Program-made: the position numbers and the translations under genes
Assembly: GCF_023023025.1 (NCBI RefSeq)
Contig: NZ_CP095481.1
Coordinates: 4,588,001-4,652,000, forward strand
Direction: 5' to 3'
From: Amycolatopsis sp. WQ 127309
GTDB taxonomy: Bacteria; Actinomycetota; Actinomycetes; Mycobacteriales; Pseudonocardiaceae
Length of the DNA: 64,000 bases
Shown: positions 7,566-16,272 of the stretch, piece by piece
Layout of the letters: each line of letters opens with the position of its first letter
Position numbering within the stretch: the stretch's first letter is position 1
Notes under the pieces: model-generated
The model's database searches: none
What the model saw: only the letters and a program-made list of their open reading frames with translations
What the model was told of the DNA's origin: nothing

Positions 7566-8252
7566 TCACTTCTTCTTGGCGGCCGACGTGCGCTTGGCCG
7601 GGGCCTTGGCTGCGGCGGGCTTCTTCGCCGCCGCGGTCTTGGTGGCGGCCGGCTTGGCCGCTGCCTTCGCCCGGGTGGTGGTGGCCTTCGCGGCGGTGGC
7701 CTTGGCCGGGGCGGCCTTGGCGGCCGCGGTCTTCGGGGCGGCCTTGGTGGTGGTCGCCGCCTTGGTCGCGGTGGCCTTGGCGGCCGGCTTCGCCGTGGTG
7801 GCGCGCGTGCGGGTGGCCGTCGCGCGGGCGGTGGCCGGCTTGGCCGCGGCCGCGCGGGGCGTGGTGGCCCGCGTGCTGGTGGCCTTCGCCGGGGCGGACG
7901 CCTTGGCGACAGCCGCACGCGTGGTCGTGGTGGCGGCGGTCGCACGCTTGACCGGGGTCGCCTTCGGCAGCTTCTTCGTGCCGGAGATGACGTCCTTGAA
8001 GGTGGTGCCGGCGCGGAAGGCGGGGACGTTGGTCTTCTTCACGCGAACGGCTTCACCGGTACGCGGGTTGCGAGCGGTGCGGGCCGCACGGGCGCGCTTC
8101 TCGAACACGCCGAAGCCGGTGATGTTCACCTTCTCGCCCTTGTTGACCGTCCGGATGATGATGTCGACCAGACCGTCAACGGCCTGCGAAGCCACCTTCT
8201 TGTCGCCCAAACGCTCAGACAGCGCCTCGATCAGCTGGGCCTTGTTCGTCAT
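7566..8252 (-). CDS. HU-family nucleoid protein with long Lys/Ala tail (first paralogue)
   Basis: A 228-residue histone-like protein. Residues 1-90 are a complete HU fold: [17 protein letters not shown], the [20 protein letters not shown] arm region and [14 protein letters not shown]. The remaining 130 or so residues are an unstructured tail of Lys, Ala, Thr and Arg repeats with PAKAT/AAKP-like units, as in mycobacterial HupB/HlpB. The tail binds DNA and condenses the chromosome. The ATG at 8252 has GGAGG six bases upstream. A close paralogue lies at 23718-24443 in the opposite orientation; 123 bases (8086-8208 here) are identical between them. The neighbouring operon for DNA-end processing is divergent and almost 700 bases away, so a functional link is only a guess. 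I give no symbol because the leuD-linked copy matches the usual hupB locus. Confidence 0.95.
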
Positions 8253-8308
8253 TCCAGTCCTCCATAGTGGAACTTGTACACGGCCCATCTCGGCCGACAC
8301 TGCACACG

Positions 8309-8335
8309 GTATTACCAATACCGCACAAAATCCAA
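8309..8335 (-). promoter_or_regulatory. Promoter of the first HU gene, with palindrome
   Basis: Reading leftward: TTGGAT (8335-8330), a 15-base spacer, then TAATAC (8314-8309). The same elements and spacing precede the second HU gene at 23634-23660. Here the downstream element is also part of a perfect palindrome, GGTATTACCAATACC (8308-8322). In the second copy that palindrome is broken. Confidence 0.6.
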
Positions 8336-8946
8336 CTGGGGGTCGAAATATTTCCTTGTACGGGGGCGGGTTCCGCCCTCTGAGAGGGGCTTGCCCGATC
8401 CCGCCCGCAACGGTCCCGGGAAGCCGACCATGGCCCTGAGCAGGCAAAACCTGGTTCCGGTGCCGTCCACAGTGGTCGTCCATATAGGACCGGTGGGGTC
8501 CCGGAAGACTTTTTCGCCGACACGCCGGGCCGGGCGCGTCCGGCGTGTGGCTGAGGCCACTCCGGCCCCGATCCCGCGCTGCGATCGGGGATCGCGGGCC
8601 CGCCGGTGGCCCCCGCGCGGCCCGCCGGACCCCGCGGCGAGGCCGCTTCACCCTGGAGCCAGCGGAAGTCCGGACGGCGGCCCGGGGGAAGCGCGGTGCC
8701 GGGCGGTAACGCCGGGCCCCGCCGGGACGACCTTTCCGGCGTGCGGGACCCCGGCCGGGTGCCGCCCGAAATGCCTGTGGTGACTAAAAGATCTTCCCCG
8801 AAGGGTGAACTCACTCGTTCGGCCCAGCCATGGCGGGCGGTGACGTCTCCGGTACCGAGCGGCCGCAACGCCGTGTTGGCCGGAGCCGCGGACTTCCGGC
8901 GGGCTAGTCTGCGGCCGGAGGAAGCGCCGGGCGGACAGGGAGAACC
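8336..8946. other. Intergenic region between divergent HU and herA-like genes
   Basis: About 600 bases with no supported gene. The part nearest the HU promoter (to about 8430) resembles the region upstream of the second HU gene, including a shared GGCGGAACCCG block. Further right I see no clear operator. The start region of the herA-like gene carries GGAGGAAGCG and GGGAGAACC. Long frames across the region are shadows. Confidence 0.5.
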
Positions 8947-10692
8947 GTGGACCAGGAGACTCTCACCACCGTGGTCGGACGGGTGGCGGGCACCGAGGAT
9001 TCGACGCCGCTGCAGTTCTGCGTGGCCATCGATCCGGAAGCCTATCTGCAGCTCGACGACGTGGTCGTGACACGGCGGGAGCTGCCGGGGCGCGGCGAAG
9101 TCGTGTCCTACGGCGTCGTGACGCAGGTGAGCGCGCGGCACGAAGGCGCCAGCTTCGGCAGCGACGTCTTCCTGATCTCGGACGGAGTCCTGCCCGCGCA
9201 GGTGCAGGAGATCGCCGAGATCGCGACCACCCGCGTCGAGCCCGAGTGCTACGTGCCGCCGCGGCCGGGCGCCGTGGTCTCCCGTGCGGTGGGGGAGGAT
9301 CGCGCGCAGGCGCTGTACTTCGACAACATGAGCCGCCAGGTGGCGGTCGGCCTGGGCCGCGACGGCGAACCGGTGTTCCTCAACCTGGACTTCCTCGACG
9401 GCACGCGCGGTGCGCACGTCAGCATCAGCGGGGTGTCCGGCGTCGCCACGAAGACGTCGTTCGCGTTGTTCCTGCTGCACTCGATCTTCCGCGGCGGCGC
9501 CCTGTCCAACGCCCACAACGCCAAGGCCCTGGTGTTCTCGGTCAAGGGCGAGGACCTGCTGTTCCTCGACACCCCGAACATCCACCTCGACGCCAAGCTG
9601 CAGGAGGAGTACGCCAAGCTGGGCCTGCCCGCGGAGCCCTTCGCCTCGGTCGGGTTCTACGCGCCGCCGACGCCGTCGGACACCACGGGGAAGCCTTACG
9701 TCACCGGGCGGACCACCGGCGTCGGCGCCTTCTGGTGGACCATCGCGGAGTTCTGCGCGACCGACCTGCTGCCCTACGTGTTCGCCGACGCCGAGGACGA
9801 GCGCAACCAGTACACGATGGTCATCCACCAGGTCGCGAACCGGTTGCGGCTGGACACGACGCCGGCCGGGAAGGACGGCGCCGCCAACGTCGACGGCGTG
9901 CTGTGCCGCACCTACGCCGAGCTGATCGACGTCATCTGCGACCGCGTCACCGACGAGGAAACCCGCGCGAGCTGGGCGGGTGCGGTCACCGGCGCGGGCA
10001 CGGTCAACGCGTTCATCCGCCGCCTGCGCTCGAGCCAGCGCGCGCTCAACGGCCTCATCCGCGGCGACCTCACCGACCACGCCGCGCGCAAGCTCTCCAC
10101 GGAGAACCAGCAGGTGACCGTGGTGGACATCCACAACCTCGTCGAGCGCGCGCAGCGGTTCGTCGTCGGCGTCACGCTCGCCGCGGAGACCGCGCGCAAG
10201 GAAGCGGCCGGCGCGGGCGGGCTGCTGTTCACGATGCTGGACGAGCTCAACAAGTACGCGCCGCGCGAAGGCAGCAGCCCGATCAAGGAAGTCCTGCTGG
10301 ACATCGCCGAGCGCGGCCGCTCCCTCGGTGTGATCCTGATCGGCGCGCAGCAGACCGCGTCCGAGGTCGAACGCCGGATCGTCAGCAACAGCTCGATCCG
10401 GATCGTCGGCCGCCTCGACGCCGCGGAGGCCTCGCGCCCCGAGTACGGCTTCCTCCCGGCCAGCCAGCGGGTCCGCGCGACGCTCGCGACGCCCGGCACG
10501 ATGTTCGTGAGCCAGCCGGAGATCCCGGTGCCGATCGCGGTCGGCTTCCCGTTCCCGGCCTGGGCCACGCGGCTCTCCGAGGCGGGACAGGTCCCGACCA
10601 CGACGGCCGTGTCCAAGAACGCCGATCCGTTCGCGGGCCTGCCCACGCGCGGCAGCAGCGACCCGTTCGGCGACGACCCACCACCTTTCTGA
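8947..10692 (+). CDS. HerA-like hexameric ATPase / DNA translocase
   Basis: A 581-residue P-loop ATPase of the HerA/FtsK superfamily. Residues 1-80 look like the N-terminal HAS barrel. The nucleotide-binding loop is at about 162-171 (GVSGVATKTS); it is unusual, with one extra residue and no Gly before the Lys. Walker B is LLFTMLDELNKYAP (Asp432-Glu433), followed by a sensor strand GVILIGAQQTASEV near 461-474. HerA pumps double-stranded DNA and works with NurA nuclease and Mre11-Rad50 to resect broken ends. This gene opens an operon with sbcD (39 bases on), sbcC and a nurA-like gene, which is the reason for choosing HerA over other HerA-fold ATPases. GTG start. The C-terminus is Pro/Asp-rich. 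Confidence 0.85.
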   Translation: MDQETLTTVVGRVAGTEDSTPLQFCVAIDPEAYLQLDDVVVTRRELPGRGEVVSYGVVTQVSARHEGASFGSDVFLISDGVLPAQVQEIAEIATTRVEPECYVPPRPGAVVSRAVGEDRAQALYFDNMSRQVAVGLGRDGEPVFLNLDFLDGTRGAHVSISGVSGVATKTSFALFLLHSIFRGGALSNAHNAKALVFSVKGEDLLFLDTPNIHLDAKLQEEYAKLGLPAEPFASVGFYAPPTPSDTTGKPYVTGRTTGVGAFWWTIAEFCATDLLPYVFADAEDERNQYTMVIHQVANRLRLDTTPAGKDGAANVDGVLCRTYAELIDVICDRVTDEETRASWAGAVTGAGTVNAFIRRLRSSQRALNGLIRGDLTDHAARKLSTENQQVTVVDIHNLVERAQRFVVGVTLAAETARKEAAGAGGLLFTMLDELNKYAPREGSSPIKEVLLDIAERGRSLGVILIGAQQTASEVERRIVSNSSIRIVGRLDAAEASRPEYGFLPASQRVRATLATPGTMFVSQPEIPVPIAVGFPFPAWATRLSEAGQVPTTTAVSKNADPFAGLPTRGSSDPFGDDPPPF

Positions 10693-10731
10693 GCCCCCCC
10701 CGGCCACAGGCGAAGAACGGAAGGACGCCGC

Positions 10732-11892
10732 GTGAAGTTCCTGCACACCTCCGACTGGCACGTCGGCAAGACGCTCAAGGGCCGCAACCGCCTGGACGAG
10801 CAGCGCGCCGTGCTCGGCGAGATCGTCCGGATCGCGCGGAAGGAGGCCTTCGACGCGATCCTGATCGCGGGTGACCTCTACGAGACGTCGGCGCCGTCGG
10901 CCGCCGCGCAGGAACTCGTGGTGCAGGCCCTGATGGCGCTGCGCGAAACCGGTGCCGAGGTCCTGGCGATCGCCGGGAACCACGACCACGCCGCGACGTT
11001 CGAGGCGTACCGGCCGCTGCTGCGGGCCGCGGGCATCCAGCTGTCCGGCGACCCGCGCCCGGTCGCCGACGGCGGTGTCGTGTCGTTCGACGCGCGTTCG
11101 ACGGGCGAGCGCGTCAACGTCGCCGTGCTGCCCTTCCTTTCCCAGCGCTACGCGGTGCGCGCCGCGGAGCTGCTCGCCGGGACGCCGGCGGACAACGTCG
11201 GCCAGTACGACCAGCGCGTGCGCGACATCCTGGAGCACCTCAAGTCCGGCTTCACCGACGGCGCCGTCAACCTCGTCATGGCGCACCTGACCGTGACGGG
11301 CGGGGCGATGGGCGGCGGCGAACGCGCGGCCCAGTCCATCTTCGAGTACCACGTGCCGGCGACGGCGTTCGGCGCCGACCCGCACTACGTCGCGCTCGGG
11401 CACCTGCACCGGCGCCAGTCGCTGCCGGCGGCCTGCCCGGTGCACTACAGCGGCGCGCCGATGCCCGTCGATTTCGGCGAGCAGGACAACACGAGCGTCG
11501 TGCTGTCGGTGGAGGTGACGCCGAGCACGCCCGCGAAGATCACCGAAATCCCGCTGACGTCGGGGCGGAAGCTGCGCACCGTCCACGGCACGGTGGCGGA
11601 ACTCGTCGGCCGGGCCGCGGAGTTCGGCGAGGACTACCTGCGTGTCTACGTCCGGGAAGCGACCCGGGCCGGGCTGCGGGAGGAGATCCAGGAAGCCCTG
11701 CCCAACGCCCTGGAGATCCGCATCGACCCGGAGTTCGCGGCGCCGATCACGGCGTCGGGCGGCGAACGCGCGGTGGCGGACCGGTCACCGGGTGAGCTGT
11801 TCGCGGCGTACTGCGACGAGCGGACGGTGGCGGACAAGAGGGTGCAGGCGCTCTTCGCGCGGCTGCACGACGACGAGACGAGCGGGGTGTGA
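10732..11892 (+). CDS. sbcD: SbcD/Mre11-family DNA exonuclease subunit
   Basis: A 386-residue calcineurin-like phosphoesterase. All Mre11 metal motifs are visible: LHTSDWHVG (Asp8, His10), IAGDLYE (Asp48), IAGNHDH (Asn83, His84), VMAHLT and ALGHLHRRQ. With SbcC it forms a Mn-dependent 3'-5' double-strand exonuclease and hairpin endonuclease that opens and trims blocked DNA ends. The GTG start has GGAAGGAC upstream. Its stop is one base before the sbcC start, so translation is coupled. Length is normal for the family. In this locus it lies between a HerA-like pump and SbcC, the arrangement seen in archaeal resection operons rather than a bare sbcDC pair. Confidence 0.95.
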   Translation: MKFLHTSDWHVGKTLKGRNRLDEQRAVLGEIVRIARKEAFDAILIAGDLYETSAPSAAAQELVVQALMALRETGAEVLAIAGNHDHAATFEAYRPLLRAAGIQLSGDPRPVADGGVVSFDARSTGERVNVAVLPFLSQRYAVRAAELLAGTPADNVGQYDQRVRDILEHLKSGFTDGAVNLVMAHLTVTGGAMGGGERAAQSIFEYHVPATAFGADPHYVALGHLHRRQSLPAACPVHYSGAPMPVDFGEQDNTSVVLSVEVTPSTPAKITEIPLTSGRKLRTVHGTVAELVGRAAEFGEDYLRVYVREATRAGLREEIQEALPNALEIRIDPEFAAPITASGGERAVADRSPGELFAAYCDERTVADKRVQALFARLHDDETSGV

Positions 11893-11893
11893 C

Positions 11894-14800
11894 ATGCGAC
11901 CGGTACTGCTGGAGATGACCGGCTTCGCGTCGTTCCGCGAGAAGACCGAAGTCAGCTTCGAGGACACGGACTACTTCGCGCTCGTGGGGCCGACCGGCGC
12001 CGGCAAGAGCACGGTCATCGACGCGCTCACCTTCGCCCTCTACGGTTCGGTCGCCCGCTGGGACCACGAAGGTCTCGTGGCGCCAGCACTGGCTCCGACG
12101 GCGAACCGCGCGACCGTGCGGCTGGTCTTCGACGCGGGCGGCACGCGCTACCACGTGGTGCGCGAAGTCCGCCGCAGCGGCGGTAAGAAACCCACGGTCA
12201 GCGTGAAGAACGTCCGCCTGGAGCGGCTCGCCGACAACGCCGCGCTCGGCGGCCCGGACGACGAGGCCGACGCCGTCGCCGCGGACTCCGAGGTGACGCC
12301 GGCGATCGAACGTCTGCTCGGGTTGACGTTCAAGCACTTCTGCACCTGCGTCGCGCTGCCGCAGGGCGACTTCGCGGAGTTCCTGCACGCCAAGGCCGCC
12401 GACCGGCAGAAGATCCTCATCAAGCTGCTGGGCCTGGAGGTCTACGAGCGGATCGGCCGCCGCGCCAACGTGACCGCCGAGCAGCAGGCGCAGCGCGCGA
12501 AAGTCCTGGAAGAGCAGCTCGGCAGTTACGCCGACGCGACCGAGGAAGCCGTCGAGGCCCTGGCCGCGCGCATGACCGCGCTGGCCGAACTGGACGCGCG
12601 GGTCGAAACGGCGTTGCCGGGGTTGACCGACGCGACCCGCGCGCACGACGAAGCCCGGCAGCTCGTCACCACGCTCACCCGGGACCTCGCGGTCCTCGAC
12701 GCGCTGGAACGCCCTGACGGCGTCGAAGATCTCGAAGCCCGGCGCCGGACCGCGGCGGAGGCGGCCACAGCCGCGCGGAGCACCCTCGACTCGGCCGAGA
12801 CGGCGGACGAAGCGGCCCGCGCCGCGCTAGCCGCCGCGCCCGACCGGGGCGAGCTGGAGCGGATCCGCGCCGCCCGCACGGAACTCGGCGCGGCCGAGGA
12901 GGCCCTCCCCGGCCTGGCCGAAGGCGCGAAGACGGCGTCGCAGGCGAAGGACACCGCAGCGACGGCGGTGGCCGGCGCGGTGGCGATCGTCGACGCGGCC
13001 CGCAAGACCCACGACACCACCGCGCGGGCCGCCGAGAACGCCGCCGCCGACGCCGCGCGCGTCCGCGGCGAGCGGGACCGGCTGGCCGGGCTGCGGCCGC
13101 CGGCGGATCTCGGTGACCTGTCCGCGGAGTCCGCGCGCGTCGCGAAGCGCGTGACGGCGGCGGCATCCCGGCTGACCGCGGCCGAGACCGCCGACGCCGA
13201 AGCGCGCGCCGCGCTGGCCGCCCAGCCGGACGGTGCCGCGCTCACCGCGGCCCGGACCGACGCCCGCACCCTCTACACGGTGGCCGAGACCCAGCGCAAA
13301 GCCCTGCCGGAGCACGCGGCCCGCCGCACGGAACTCGACGCGGCGCGGACGGCTTTCACCGCGTCCGACGCCGAACTCACCGCGGCTCGGACCGCGGTGA
13401 CCGACGCCGAACGCGCCGGGCAGGCGCTGGTCCTGCGGGCCGGGCTCGCCGTCGGGCACCCGTGCCCGGTGTGCGAGCAGGAAGTCTCGGCCGTGCCGGC
13501 GCACGACGGCCACGCCCACCTCGCCGAGGCCCGCGAGCGCCAGGACCAGGCCGAGCAGCGGCGCGCGGCGGCCGAAACCGCCGTCCGCAAGCTGGAACGG
13601 GCCGTGGACCGCGACGCCGACCAGTCCGCTTCGGCGGCCGCGCAGGCGGAAGAGCTGCGCGTGGCCCTCGCGGACGTCGAAGGCCCGCCGGAGTCGGCTG
13701 TGCTGCTGCGCCCGGTCGAAGCCGGTTCTTCCGAGCAGGACTTCGCCGATCTCATCGCCGCCGTGCGCGAGCGAGGGGAATGGCTGTCCGCGACGCTCGA
13801 CGCCCGCGCCCGCGTCATCGAGGCCGCCCGCGCCGCCGACGCCGAACTGGCGGCGGCCCGCGCCGAGCGCACGGCGGCCCAGCGCGACGCCGAAGTCGTC
13901 GAGAAGTCGGCCGTGGCGGCCCGGGAAGCCCTGCGGGCGGCCCGGGATCCGCTGGTGGAGCTGGGTGCGCCGGGGATCGACGCCGACGACGTCGCGGCGG
14001 GCTGGCAGCGGCTCACGGCGTGGGCGGCGTCGGCGCTCGAGGCACGGCGCACCGCGTCGGGGGCGCTCGAAGCGGCCGCCGAAGCCGCGGGCAAGGAAGC
14101 CGTCGTCGCGGCGGACGACCTCGCGTCGGCCGAGCGGACCGCCGAAACCCGCCGCACGCAGGCGAACGACGCGGGCCTGGCCGAGCAGTCGGCGCGCACC
14201 CGGCTGGACACCACCACGCGCCGCCGTGACGAACTGATCGTGACGCTCGCCGAAGCGCCGTCCGCCGACGTCGTCACCGCGCGGCTGGCGCAGGTCGCGT
14301 CGCTCGAAGAAGCCGCGCGTGCCGCCGACGCGGAGCTGCGCACCGCGCGTGCCGCGGCGAAGCAGGCCATCGACGGCCAGGCGCGCGTGAGCAAGGAAGT
14401 CGAGGCCGAGCGGCAGAAGCTGTCCCGGGCGCGCGATCCCCTCGTCGGCTTCGGCGCACCGCCGATCGACGGCGAAAGCCTCCTGGACGCCTGGACGTCG
14501 CTGACGGACTGGGCGGCCGGGCAGGCGACCGAACGCCGTGCGCGGCTGGCCGCCGCCGAGACCGCCGAGGGTTCCGCCGCGGAAGCGTTGCGCGGGGCCG
14601 AACAGCAGGTCGCCGACGACGTCACCGCGCTCGGGATCACCCTGCCGGCGGGGCCGGTGCGCGACCGGGTGCCGGTGGCGCTGGCCACCGCGCGCGCCCG
14701 CGCCGAGGCCGACCACACCGAGCTGCGGCGGCGGGTGGCCCACGTCGAAGGCCTGCGCGGCGACATCGCGGGCGCGGAGTCGGAGTCGCAGGTCGCGAAG

Positions 14801-15295
14801 CTGCTCGCGGATCTCCTGCGCTCGGACAAGTTCCCGCGCTGGCTGATCGCCGGGGCGCTCGACACGCTGGTCGCCGAGGCGTCCGCGTCGCTGCTGGAGC
14901 TGTCCGGCGGGCAGTTCGAGCTGACCCACGACAAGGGCGACTTCCTGGTGGTGGACCACAACGAGGCCGACGCCCGCCGCCCGGTGAAGACGCTGTCGGG
15001 CGGGGAGACCTTCCAGGCGTCGCTGGCGCTCGCCCTCGCGCTGTCGTCCCAGCTGGGCGCCATGGCCGTGGCCGGCGCGACCAAGCTGGAGTCGATCTTC
15101 CTCGACGAGGGCTTCGGGACGCTCGACGAGGCGACCCTCGACGTCGTAGCGTCCACTTTGGAGAACCTGTCGGCCTCCGGCACGCGGATGGTCGGCGTGA
15201 TCACGCACGTGCCGGCGCTGGCCGAGCGCGTGCCGGTCCGGTTCCTGGTCACCCGCGACGGCAGCGGCTCGCACATCACCAGGGAGGGCGCATGA
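11894..15295 (+). CDS. sbcC: SbcC/Rad50-family SMC ATPase
   Basis: A 1133-residue ABC-type ATPase split by a long coiled coil. The N-terminal Walker A is GPTGAGKST (32-40), followed by a Q-loop region with CVALPQGDF. The middle is Ala/Glu/Arg-rich heptad sequence interrupted by a zinc hook, HPCPVCE (Cys524 and Cys527). The C-terminus has the signature LSGGETFQ near 1034 and Walker B/D-loop SIFLDEGFGTLDE near 1067-1079. It clamps DNA ends and drives the SbcD nuclease. It starts one base after sbcD and its stop overlaps the start of the nurA-like gene (ATGA), so all four operon genes are translationally linked or nearly so. The gene is very GC-rich and has long antisense frames that are artefacts. 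Confidence 0.95.
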   Translation: MRPVLLEMTGFASFREKTEVSFEDTDYFALVGPTGAGKSTVIDALTFALYGSVARWDHEGLVAPALAPTANRATVRLVFDAGGTRYHVVREVRRSGGKKPTVSVKNVRLERLADNAALGGPDDEADAVAADSEVTPAIERLLGLTFKHFCTCVALPQGDFAEFLHAKAADRQKILIKLLGLEVYERIGRRANVTAEQQAQRAKVLEEQLGSYADATEEAVEALAARMTALAELDARVETALPGLTDATRAHDEARQLVTTLTRDLAVLDALERPDGVEDLEARRRTAAEAATAARSTLDSAETADEAARAALAAAPDRGELERIRAARTELGAAEEALPGLAEGAKTASQAKDTAATAVAGAVAIVDAARKTHDTTARAAENAAADAARVRGERDRLAGLRPPADLGDLSAESARVAKRVTAAASRLTAAETADAEARAALAAQPDGAALTAARTDARTLYTVAETQRKALPEHAARRTELDAARTAFTASDAELTAARTAVTDAERAGQALVLRAGLAVGHPCPVCEQEVSAVPAHDGHAHLAEARERQDQAEQRRAAAETAVRKLERAVDRDADQSASAAAQAEELRVALADVEGPPESAVLLRPVEAGSSEQDFADLIAAVRERGEWLSATLDARARVIEAARAADAELAAARAERTAAQRDAEVVEKSAVAAREALRAARDPLVELGAPGIDADDVAAGWQRLTAWAASALEARRTASGALEAAAEAAGKEAVVAADDLASAERTAETRRTQANDAGLAEQSARTRLDTTTRRRDELIVTLAEAPSADVVTARLAQVASLEEAARAADAELRTARAAAKQAIDGQARVSKEVEAERQKLSRARDPLVGFGAPPIDGESLLDAWTSLTDWAAGQATERRARLAAAETAEGSAAEALRGAEQQVADDVTALGITLPAGPVRDRVPVALATARARAEADHTELRRRVAHVEGLRGDIAGAESESQVAKLLADLLRSDKFPRWLIAGALDTLVAEASASLLELSGGQFELTHDKGDFLVVDHNEADARRPVKTLSGGETFQASLALALALSSQLGAMAVAGATKLESIFLDEGFGTLDEATLDVVASTLENLSASGTRMVGVITHVPALAERVPVRFLVTRDGSGSHITREGA

Positions 15296-16272
15296 CCGCG
15301 GTGGCGGGGATGAGCTTCAACATCGACGCCTGGGACCCGGGTTACGGCAGCTCGATGGAGGCCGAGGAGCTCGCCCGGTCGCAGGCCGAGGTCGAGCTCG
15401 ACGTCGAGGTCCCGGCCGCCGAGTGGGCGCCGATCGACCCGTCGCCGGTGCCGTCGCCGCCGGACGCGGTGCTGTTCGTGGACGGCGTCCGCCGCATCGA
15501 CGCCCGCGTCTGGATCGACGACCCGGACGGCGCGAACTCCGCGTCCATCGGGATCTGCGCGTCCTACGCGGCCGGGGTGGTGTGCTGCTGCGCGGGCCGG
15601 GCGCACGTCGTCGCCGCCAACGTCCGGCGCGGGCTGTTCACCGTCGCGCCGGAAGCCGCCGGTATCGAGACGACGGCCGGGCGGTACGAGGCGTTCCGCG
15701 CGACGGCCAAGGACGACAAGCCCCTCGCCGTGGTGCTGTCGTCGGCGTTGCAGAGCGAGCTGGCCGACGTCGAGCTGGCGACGGCCGAGGAAGCGCGCCG
15801 GGCGATCGCCGGGCACGTCGCCCACGACCTGCTCGTCGTCGACGGCCCGCTGAGCGGGCGCACGCACCTGCCCCGGGCCGTCGGGTTCATCAAGAGCCAC
15901 CAGACGACCTACCTGCCGGGCGAGCTCAACGCGATGGTCGGCGAGCTCACCCCGCACCAGCGCACGCCGGTGTTCCTGATGGGCACGACGTGGGTCCGGC
16001 ACTCCTGGTACCTGCGCCTGCCCTCGGACGGCGGCCCGCCGTGGTCGGGGGTGGTGCGCGTCGAGGCGGCCCCGCACCTCGCGCGCGAAGAGGTGACGGA
16101 CCTGGCGAACGTCACGCAGTCGGTGCTGGGGCGCTTCGCGTCGGTGCCGTACAAGGACTCGCGGGCGCCGCAGAACCTGTACCCGATCGCCGGGCTGGAG
16201 CGCGACCTGCGGCACCGGCTCGGCGACCAGCAGTTCGTCTACCGGGCGCTGCGGCTGGCCGCGTCACGCTGA
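15292..16272 (+). CDS. NurA-like DNA-end-processing nuclease
   Basis: A 326-residue protein with NurA hallmarks. LFVDGVRRIDARVW puts Asp64 in a first beta-strand metal motif. HDLLVVDGPLSGRTH supplies Asp184 of the second acidic motif, followed by VGFIKSHQTTYL with Lys201. The core is an RNase-H-like fold with two Mn ions that degrades 5' strands while HerA feeds DNA into it. The start overlaps the sbcC stop by four bases, with AGGGAGG upstream. Position as last gene of a herA-mre11-rad50 operon is the strongest support, since NurA sequences diverge greatly. If a profile search gave no NurA match it should be called an RNase-H-like protein of unknown role. Confidence 0.75.
   Translation: MTAVAGMSFNIDAWDPGYGSSMEAEELARSQAEVELDVEVPAAEWAPIDPSPVPSPPDAVLFVDGVRRIDARVWIDDPDGANSASIGICASYAAGVVCCCAGRAHVVAANVRRGLFTVAPEAAGIETTAGRYEAFRATAKDDKPLAVVLSSALQSELADVELATAEEARRAIAGHVAHDLLVVDGPLSGRTHLPRAVGFIKSHQTTYLPGELNAMVGELTPHQRTPVFLMGTTWVRHSWYLRLPSDGGPPWSGVVRVEAAPHLAREEVTDLANVTQSVLGRFASVPYKDSRAPQNLYPIAGLERDLRHRLGDQQFVYRALRLAASR

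Follow-up and report, generated by a model that had tools for sequence, protein, structure and literature searches.

A HerA-SbcD-SbcC-NurA operon of Amycolatopsis and other Actinomycetota, a co-inherited and probable module for DNA end resection that includes an Mre11-Rad50 pair of its own

The window analyzed here is a stretch of 64,000 nucleotides (C1:4588001-4652000) from the single-contig, 11.13 Mb genome of the soil bacterium Amycolatopsis sp. WQ 127309, and our subject is the operon that herA, sbcD, sbcC, and nurA form in it as four adjacent, co-directional genes of the plus strand, in that order. The nearest named proteins come from Amycolatopsis as well. We propose that these genes encode a co-inherited module for end resection at DNA double-strand breaks, which has its own Mre11-Rad50 pair and probably serves repair; we put the probability of this reading, whose functional part is drawn from homology and from the comparison of genomes, at about 0.75. 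The genes are packed as the original prediction had described them, with 39 bases between herA and sbcD, 1 base between sbcD and sbcC, and a 4-base ATGA overlap between sbcC and nurA. As a block, the four genes have been kept together through a common history. Across the 69 of 99 operons that have long enough copies of all four proteins, their pairwise distances correlate with r values of 0.945 to 0.978, and none of 999 permutations reached the observed value; co-inheritance or shared ancestry alone gives such correlations, however, which are no proof of contact between the proteins.

The operon had been thought exceptional for a bacterium, a view that the survey overturns. At least 581 related loci were found in GTDB genomes, scanned at one genome per species, of which the best 80 were kept for the study of gene order; their carriers are Micromonospora, Actinoplanes, Pseudonocardia, Frankia-type bacteria, Kineosporia, Nakamurella, Planotetraspora, and others, including two Mycobacterium records. 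The full order HerA-SbcD-SbcC-NurA is present in 58 of the best 80 loci, two of which have SbcC spread over two frames. In 18 of the remaining 22, the last recognized gene lies at the end of the fetched stretch; the exceptions are L100, in which the SbcC frame also runs to the end of the stretch, L071, in which an insertion precedes sbcD and sbcC, and the loci L067 and L124, with HerA alone. Of the 119 Actinomycetota genomes sampled, 29 have HerA, namely our own genome and 28 of other classes, while the 4 other genomes of the same order and the 5 others of the same class have none. SbcD lies close to HerA and on the same strand in all 29 (widest spacing, about 14 kb), and the gene-order survey that the original prediction had called for found all four genes together in 27 (a few of them with insertions), the contig ending first in the other two (L045 and L047). 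Two of the carriers are irregular, G011 being a diverged member (SbcD, 3e-15; NurA, 3e-13) and G114 having a herA broken across several frames.

Two gene orders occur among these 29 carriers: HerA-SbcD-SbcC-NurA, as in the window, in 12 genomes (L045 and L047 included), and NurA-HerA-SbcD-SbcC in 17. The full set is also found on plasmids, with NurA first in a conjugative plasmid of a cyanobacterium and in one of Chloroflexota, and with NurA last in one of Streptomyces; 6 records of the plasmid collection have HerA and 4 were examined, one of them a record of 11.85 Mb that is a plasmid by label only. The Streptomyces copy (L220; Streptomyces sp. BB1-1-1, NZ_CP134205.1, 1-16447) is complete and sits on a 452-kb linear plasmid, and the Sphaerospermopsis (L221) and Candidatus Chlorohelix (L222) copies belong to two other phyla. 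Since NurA comes first in the plasmids of other phyla and in Oceanithermus profundus, the NurA-first order is probably the older one in bacteria. Phages contribute little, with distant HerA matches in 2 of 50,697 records (28% and 25% identity); the latter is a gene of Marinitoga camini virus 1 annotated as "bipolar DNA helicase HerA" (KP836355.1, 38522-39901).

The identities of SbcD and SbcC, called with confidence in the original prediction, are secure. SbcD scores 172 bits against TIGR00619 (cut-off, 77.65) and carries phosphoesterase motifs, its metallophosphatase residues D8, H10, D48, N83, H84, D85, H185, H224, and H226 being kept in 91 or all 92 of the aligned rows. SbcC has the bipartite ATPase with its hook; of the 73 operon SbcCs longer than 700 residues, 72 contain a C[PA]xC hook. 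HerA and NurA, which had rested on motifs and context, proved to be real as well. By its sequence, HerA is an FtsK/HerA-type DNA translocase, predicted to be a hexamer, and the only match of its kind in its genome; it aligns to chain B of PDB 7f6d (E=3.4e-141) in two stretches that span residues 9-549 and cover the HAS barrel and the RecA-like domain. The profile searches proposed earlier gave a divided answer: neither window protein matches a curated profile (Pfam and NCBIfam for HerA, Pfam PF09376 for NurA), whereas some aligned relatives do, with the HAS-barrel profile in 1 of 19 HerAs and PF09376 in 14 of 46 NurAs. NurA has an RNase-H-like fold, and Asp64 and Asp184, the two residues around which a metal site had been predicted, are invariant in 46 sequences. 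The NurA of Sulfolobus solfataricus matches it by fold and not by sequence.

Residue by residue, HerA and NurA are homologous, at most positions compared, to the NurA-HerA complex of Deinococcus radiodurans; the positions are those that mutations or structures had probed there, and the equivalences were read by hand from pairwise alignments. Residues K175, T176, D487, E488, R495, R513, and R552 of the D. radiodurans HerA (drHerA) correspond to K169, T170, D432, E433, R440, R458, and R497 in the window; R440 occurs in 98 of the 99 aligned HerAs and the other six in every one, as do G162 and T168. In drHerA, K175 and T176 belong to Walker A, D487 and E488 to Walker B, R495 and R552 to the pore, and R513 acts in trans (PMC9960219). 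For NurA, W8, D53, K201, and R309 of the D. radiodurans protein (drNurA) align with W14, D64, K201, and R291, all four invariant in the 46 sequences, and R281, K288, R318, and R321 align with the interface residues K299, K306, R336, and R339, all of them basic. The label "archaeal-style" given to the operon thus holds for gene content and fails for the proteins, which are of a bacterial, Deinococcus-like type. Thermophilic archaea do carry the same four genes (PMC2288612), and we regard a recent acquisition of an archaeal operon as highly improbable.

The operon SbcD belongs to a lineage distinct from nearly all solo SbcDs compared, including the second SbcD of the same genome (C1:1229568-1230296), around which 16 kb contain no HerA or NurA. 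In a tree of 70 rows chosen by hand, of which 46 are HerA-linked and 24 solo (all from the loci fetched, with one gene entered twice), one starred clade on a branch of length 1.74 holds 22 of the 24 solo rows, and the two SbcDs of our genome fall on opposite sides of the linked/solo split. The labels need 3 changes on the tree, compared with a mean of 20.2 when shuffled and with no shuffle in 500 as low; a single change was seen in none of 200 bootstrap trees, and these values are to be read with the uneven branch lengths in mind, long branches meeting in this tree. The two solo exceptions are L165, on a very long branch, and L150 of genome G039, which stands beside a clade of 36 linked rows that includes the window. 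Among these 36 rows, 28 come from loci with NurA last and the place of NurA was not seen for 8, while the 10 linked rows outside this clade all come from NurA-first operons; the change in the position of nurA, as judged from this sample, therefore fits a single event.

The genus Amycolatopsis offers a closer view of how the operon may have been acquired. HerA is present in 8 of 36 genomes (our own and 35 others), all 8 of which have two or more SbcDs, counted at E values up to 1e-15, whereas 27 of the 28 HerA-negative genomes have one and the last (G151) has three. We infer from the extra SbcD in 8 of 8 HerA-positive genomes that the operon would have brought its own SbcD into this genus without replacing the old one. 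G151 and G141 have three SbcD-like genes each, and the lowest scorers (114-129 bits) may represent another lineage. Among other genera of the same order, HerA occurs in 4 of 24 genomes (G160, G164, G166, and G172), in which the linked SbcD is the sole SbcD found. The same holds in the phylum sample, where 28 genomes besides our own carry HerA: 27 of them have a single SbcD over the family cut-off, which is the linked one, and no SbcD of G011 reaches it. Over the whole sample, an SbcD above this cut-off is found in 28 of 29 HerA-positive and 26 of 90 HerA-negative genomes, a contrast that counts in favor of a joint module and was assessed by Fisher tests that ignore relatedness.

As had been suspected, the complete set stands beside another resection machine. 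AdnAB is an end-processing helicase-nuclease for double-strand breaks, and the genome encodes it at C1:3830402-3837363 as two adjacent UvrD-helicase/PD-(D/E)XK proteins of 1241 and 1266 residues (mechanically called open reading frames [ORFs]), which match chains A and B of PDB 6ppj, 6ppu, and 7sjr, structures that we take to be of mycobacterial AdnAB; the second, ordinary SbcD comes in addition. Mutual exclusion between the HerA operon and AdnAB or AddAB was considered and found no support, because PF12705, counted in place of AdnAB itself, is present in 115 of the 119 genomes, HerA-positive ones included.

Two independent machines might share the operon, HerA-NurA working alone as in D. radiodurans and SbcCD working alone on hairpins, with a linkage that is regulatory. 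The D. radiodurans HerA and NurA indeed form a two-protein complex that resects in vitro (PMC9960219), and genes can be inserted between herA and sbcD: the spacing reaches 0.6 to more than 9 kb in several Pseudonocardia or related loci and in one other lineage. G039, furthermore, keeps an SbcD-SbcC pair of the linked type, with neither HerA nor NurA in the 20 kb retrieved around it. We nevertheless hold two separate machines to be rather doubtful, given that the linkage is kept across the phylum and beyond, that the SbcD lineage occurs almost only in linked loci among the rows compared, and that Mre11-Rad50 and HerA interact directly in Sulfolobus (PMC2288612). Wherever sbcD was seen in the loci with insertions, order and strand were kept. 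These loci (L064, L065, L067, L071-L075, L081, and L083, from Pseudonocardia and relatives, and L040-L042) have a herA-sbcD gap of at least 0.6 kb, often with unrelated genes, or have sbcD beyond the stretch. A common fifth component in the gap was rejected because the inserted genes vary and look metabolic or regulatory by eye. Clustering of the 585 ORFs predicted by a simple caller in the flanks of the best 80 loci gave one cluster in 43 loci, mostly co-directional and directly upstream and RibD-like by eye, which we do not count as part of the module.

Promoters provide a first indication of whether the module acts on the cell's own DNA. Using motif letters that we take to represent RecA-NDp, the actinobacterial DNA-damage promoter, we found matches at 14 or more of 16 positions in 5 of the 80 regions that precede the HerA match in the best loci, against an expectation of 0.02 from random stretches of these loci, and at 12 or more positions in 9 of the 80 (1.82 expected). 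The five strong sites (L080, L082, L063, L075, and L081; PafBC-type) lie 60 to 128 bases upstream of the match to HerA and belong to two Kineosporia, two Pseudonocardia, and one metagenome-assembled genome; because two pairs are of related species, they amount to fewer than five independent cases. Elsewhere in our own genome, 12 exact RecA-NDp-like sites occur against none for the reversed pattern. A LexA box gave only weak enrichment over simple shuffles and was dropped. PafBC activates DNA-repair genes through the RecA-NDp motif (PMC8223512 and PMC6789036, which confirm the role and not the motif letters).

Repair of the cell's own DNA is accordingly the likelier role, which we favor loosely, when set against defense, in which the operon, like some other systems of the HerA family, would degrade incoming phage or plasmid DNA at its ends, with SbcCD as the end sensor. 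Several observations lean toward defense. The Streptomyces plasmid copy adjoins Wadjet JetA2/JetB2 genes and an ImmA/IrrE metallopeptidase gene, and in the Chlorohelix copy an ImmA/IrrE gene lies directly upstream of nurA with a TIR-domain gene nearby. TdpAB is as close in fold to the window NurA as archaeal NurA is, and the PADLOC models mad3 and mad8 are matched by SbcC (3.1e-26) and HerA (2.2e-9). The matches to the D. radiodurans complex are far stronger, however, and SbcC-like ATPases resemble many SMC-type defense proteins. Defense placement was seen in the two plasmid copies, whereas the recurring neighbors of the best 80 loci look like housekeeping genes, as judged by eye and with no scan against a defense library. 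Since the linked SbcD is, moreover, the sole one over the cut-off in nearly all other carriers of the phylum and some relatives have damage-type promoters, we consider defense unlikely.

Our working model for the resection module, built from family membership and from the residues kept with respect to D. radiodurans, is the following. SbcCD would capture a broken, blocked, or hairpin end and nick, trim, or clear it. A HerA hexamer would then load on the duplex and use ATP hydrolysis to pump it into a NurA dimer seated on the HAS barrels; NurA would split the duplex and cut mainly the 5' strand stepwise, leaving a 3' tail for RecA. For the D. radiodurans complex, it is reported that duplex DNA pumped by HerA into the NurA dimer is melted there and cut, mainly on the 5' strand, as translocation proceeds (PMC9960219). 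A contact between SbcCD and HerA is suggested by gene linkage and by the co-precipitation of HerA, Mre11, and Rad50 in Sulfolobus (PMC2288612). In this Amycolatopsis, the module may supplement AdnAB and the ordinary SbcCD, probably at ends on which these two machines work poorly.

A number of findings have to be set against this resection model. In Sulfolobus, NurA was not recovered with HerA, Mre11, and Rad50 (PMC2288612). The trans-acting R154 of drHerA is D148 in the window and D or E in 99 of 99 aligned HerAs, and just one of three acidic drHerA residues that bind NurA is kept, D78 (window D73). The herA promoter of the window itself lacks the RecA-NDp motif, its best score of 10 of 16 being at background level. 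Loss of nurA-herA made D. radiodurans more resistant to UV and mitomycin C (PMC9960219), so that a simple pro-repair role is not assured. The patchy presence in Amycolatopsis implies that the operon is dispensable there, and G039 shows a linked-type SbcD-SbcC without HerA. The G039 pair, seen at L219, groups with the HerA-linked lineage and may reflect a loss.

Going one step further, we tentatively suggest, at somewhat less than even odds, that an actinobacterial SbcCD lineage evolved to work only with HerA-NurA, the four proteins forming one obligate resection complex; nurA would have moved from first to last place once, at the base of the branch that includes the window, and genera such as Amycolatopsis would have gained the complex while retaining AdnAB and the ordinary SbcCD. 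Were this true, three parallel end-processing routes would operate in one cell. The carriers are culturable, largely mesophilic bacteria in which the four genes are kept together, and a second SbcD not tied to HerA provides a built-in control in the same cell. The handover of ends from Mre11-Rad50 to HerA-NurA thus becomes directly testable outside hyperthermophiles, and a widespread candidate system joins the usual list of bacterial resection machines.

The positions of the genes and of the residues discussed are collected in Table 1. Upstream of herA, a divergent ORF on the minus strand (7566-8651) contains, as judged by eye, an HU-like DNA-binding protein whose long tail is rich in Ala, Lys, and Thr. 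Two blocks in the same upstream region, CTCACTCGTTCGG (8810-8822) and GGCGGGCTAGTCTG (8898-8911), are kept in five Amycolatopsis.

Table 1. Positions in the window of the four operon genes and of selected motifs and residues
Feature	Position	Strand	Description
herA	8947..10692	+	581 aa, GTG start; FtsK/HerA-type DNA translocase (predicted); PDB 7f6d_B, E=3.4e-141
HerA Walker A region, G162-T170	9430..9456	+	GVSGVATKT; K169/T170 align with drHerA K175/T176
HerA Walker B, D432-E433	10240..10245	+	aligned with drHerA D487/E488
sbcD	10732..11892	+	386 aa, GTG start; Mre11-type phosphoesterase; TIGR00619, 172 bits
sbcC	11894..15295	+	1133 aa; Rad50-type ATPase; motifs GPTGAGKS, LSGGE, FLDEG
SbcC zinc-hook motif, residues 524-527	13463..13474	+	CPVC
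nurA	15292..16272	+	326 aa; NurA-family nuclease (predicted)
NurA D64	15481..15483	+	aligns with catalytic drNurA D53; invariant in 46
NurA E161	15772..15774	+	acidic; invariant in 46; 71/71 in larger alignment
NurA D184	15841..15843	+	acidic; invariant in 46; 71/71 in larger alignment
NurA K201	15892..15894	+	aligns with drNurA K201, required for nuclease activity; invariant in 46
NurA R291	16162..16164	+	aligns with drNurA R309, required for nuclease activity; invariant in 46

Part of this picture is already in print, as a review reports that NurA and HerA homologs are conserved in Actinobacteria, among others (PMC8708640), and a bacterial four-gene cluster has been described (PMC5448004). 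According to the same review (PMC8708640), bacterial HerA-NurA had been studied only in D. radiodurans. Among the papers listed by a literature search, whose silence is weak evidence, no description of the four-gene actinobacterial operon or of its separate SbcCD lineage stood out. What is new is this separate lineage of operon SbcDs, together with a genome that holds both SbcDs and AdnAB.

Among known systems, the closest is the NurA-HerA complex of D. radiodurans (PDB 7f6d, 7wrw, and 7wrx; PMC9960219), to which HerA and NurA are homologous over nearly their full length. Most residues for ATP hydrolysis, translocation, and cleavage are kept in the window proteins, while the interface acids are kept in part. 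In D. radiodurans, nurA-herA were deleted jointly "as an operon", whereas in the window sbcD-sbcC lie inside the operon and nurA comes last; a link of SbcCD to HerA-NurA was posed as an open question for Deinococcus (PMC4663267). The herA-mre11-rad50-nurA cluster of Sulfolobus and other thermophilic archaea unites the same four gene families (PMC2288612), but the partners in the window are bacterial-type SbcD and SbcC and the host also has AdnAB. The nurA-hepA-sbcD-sbcC cluster of Oceanithermus profundus (PMC5448004) is a bacterial four-gene cluster with nurA first, an order shared by 17 of the 29 sampled actinobacterial operons and different from that of the window. Solo SbcCD, represented by the second SbcD of the same genome, belongs to the same enzyme family, and each of the two loci codes for a CPVC hook, yet its SbcD falls in a separate clade and its surroundings lack HerA and NurA. 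Finally, AdnAB combines UvrD-like motors with PD-(D/E)XK nucleases, families unlike those of HerA and NurA.

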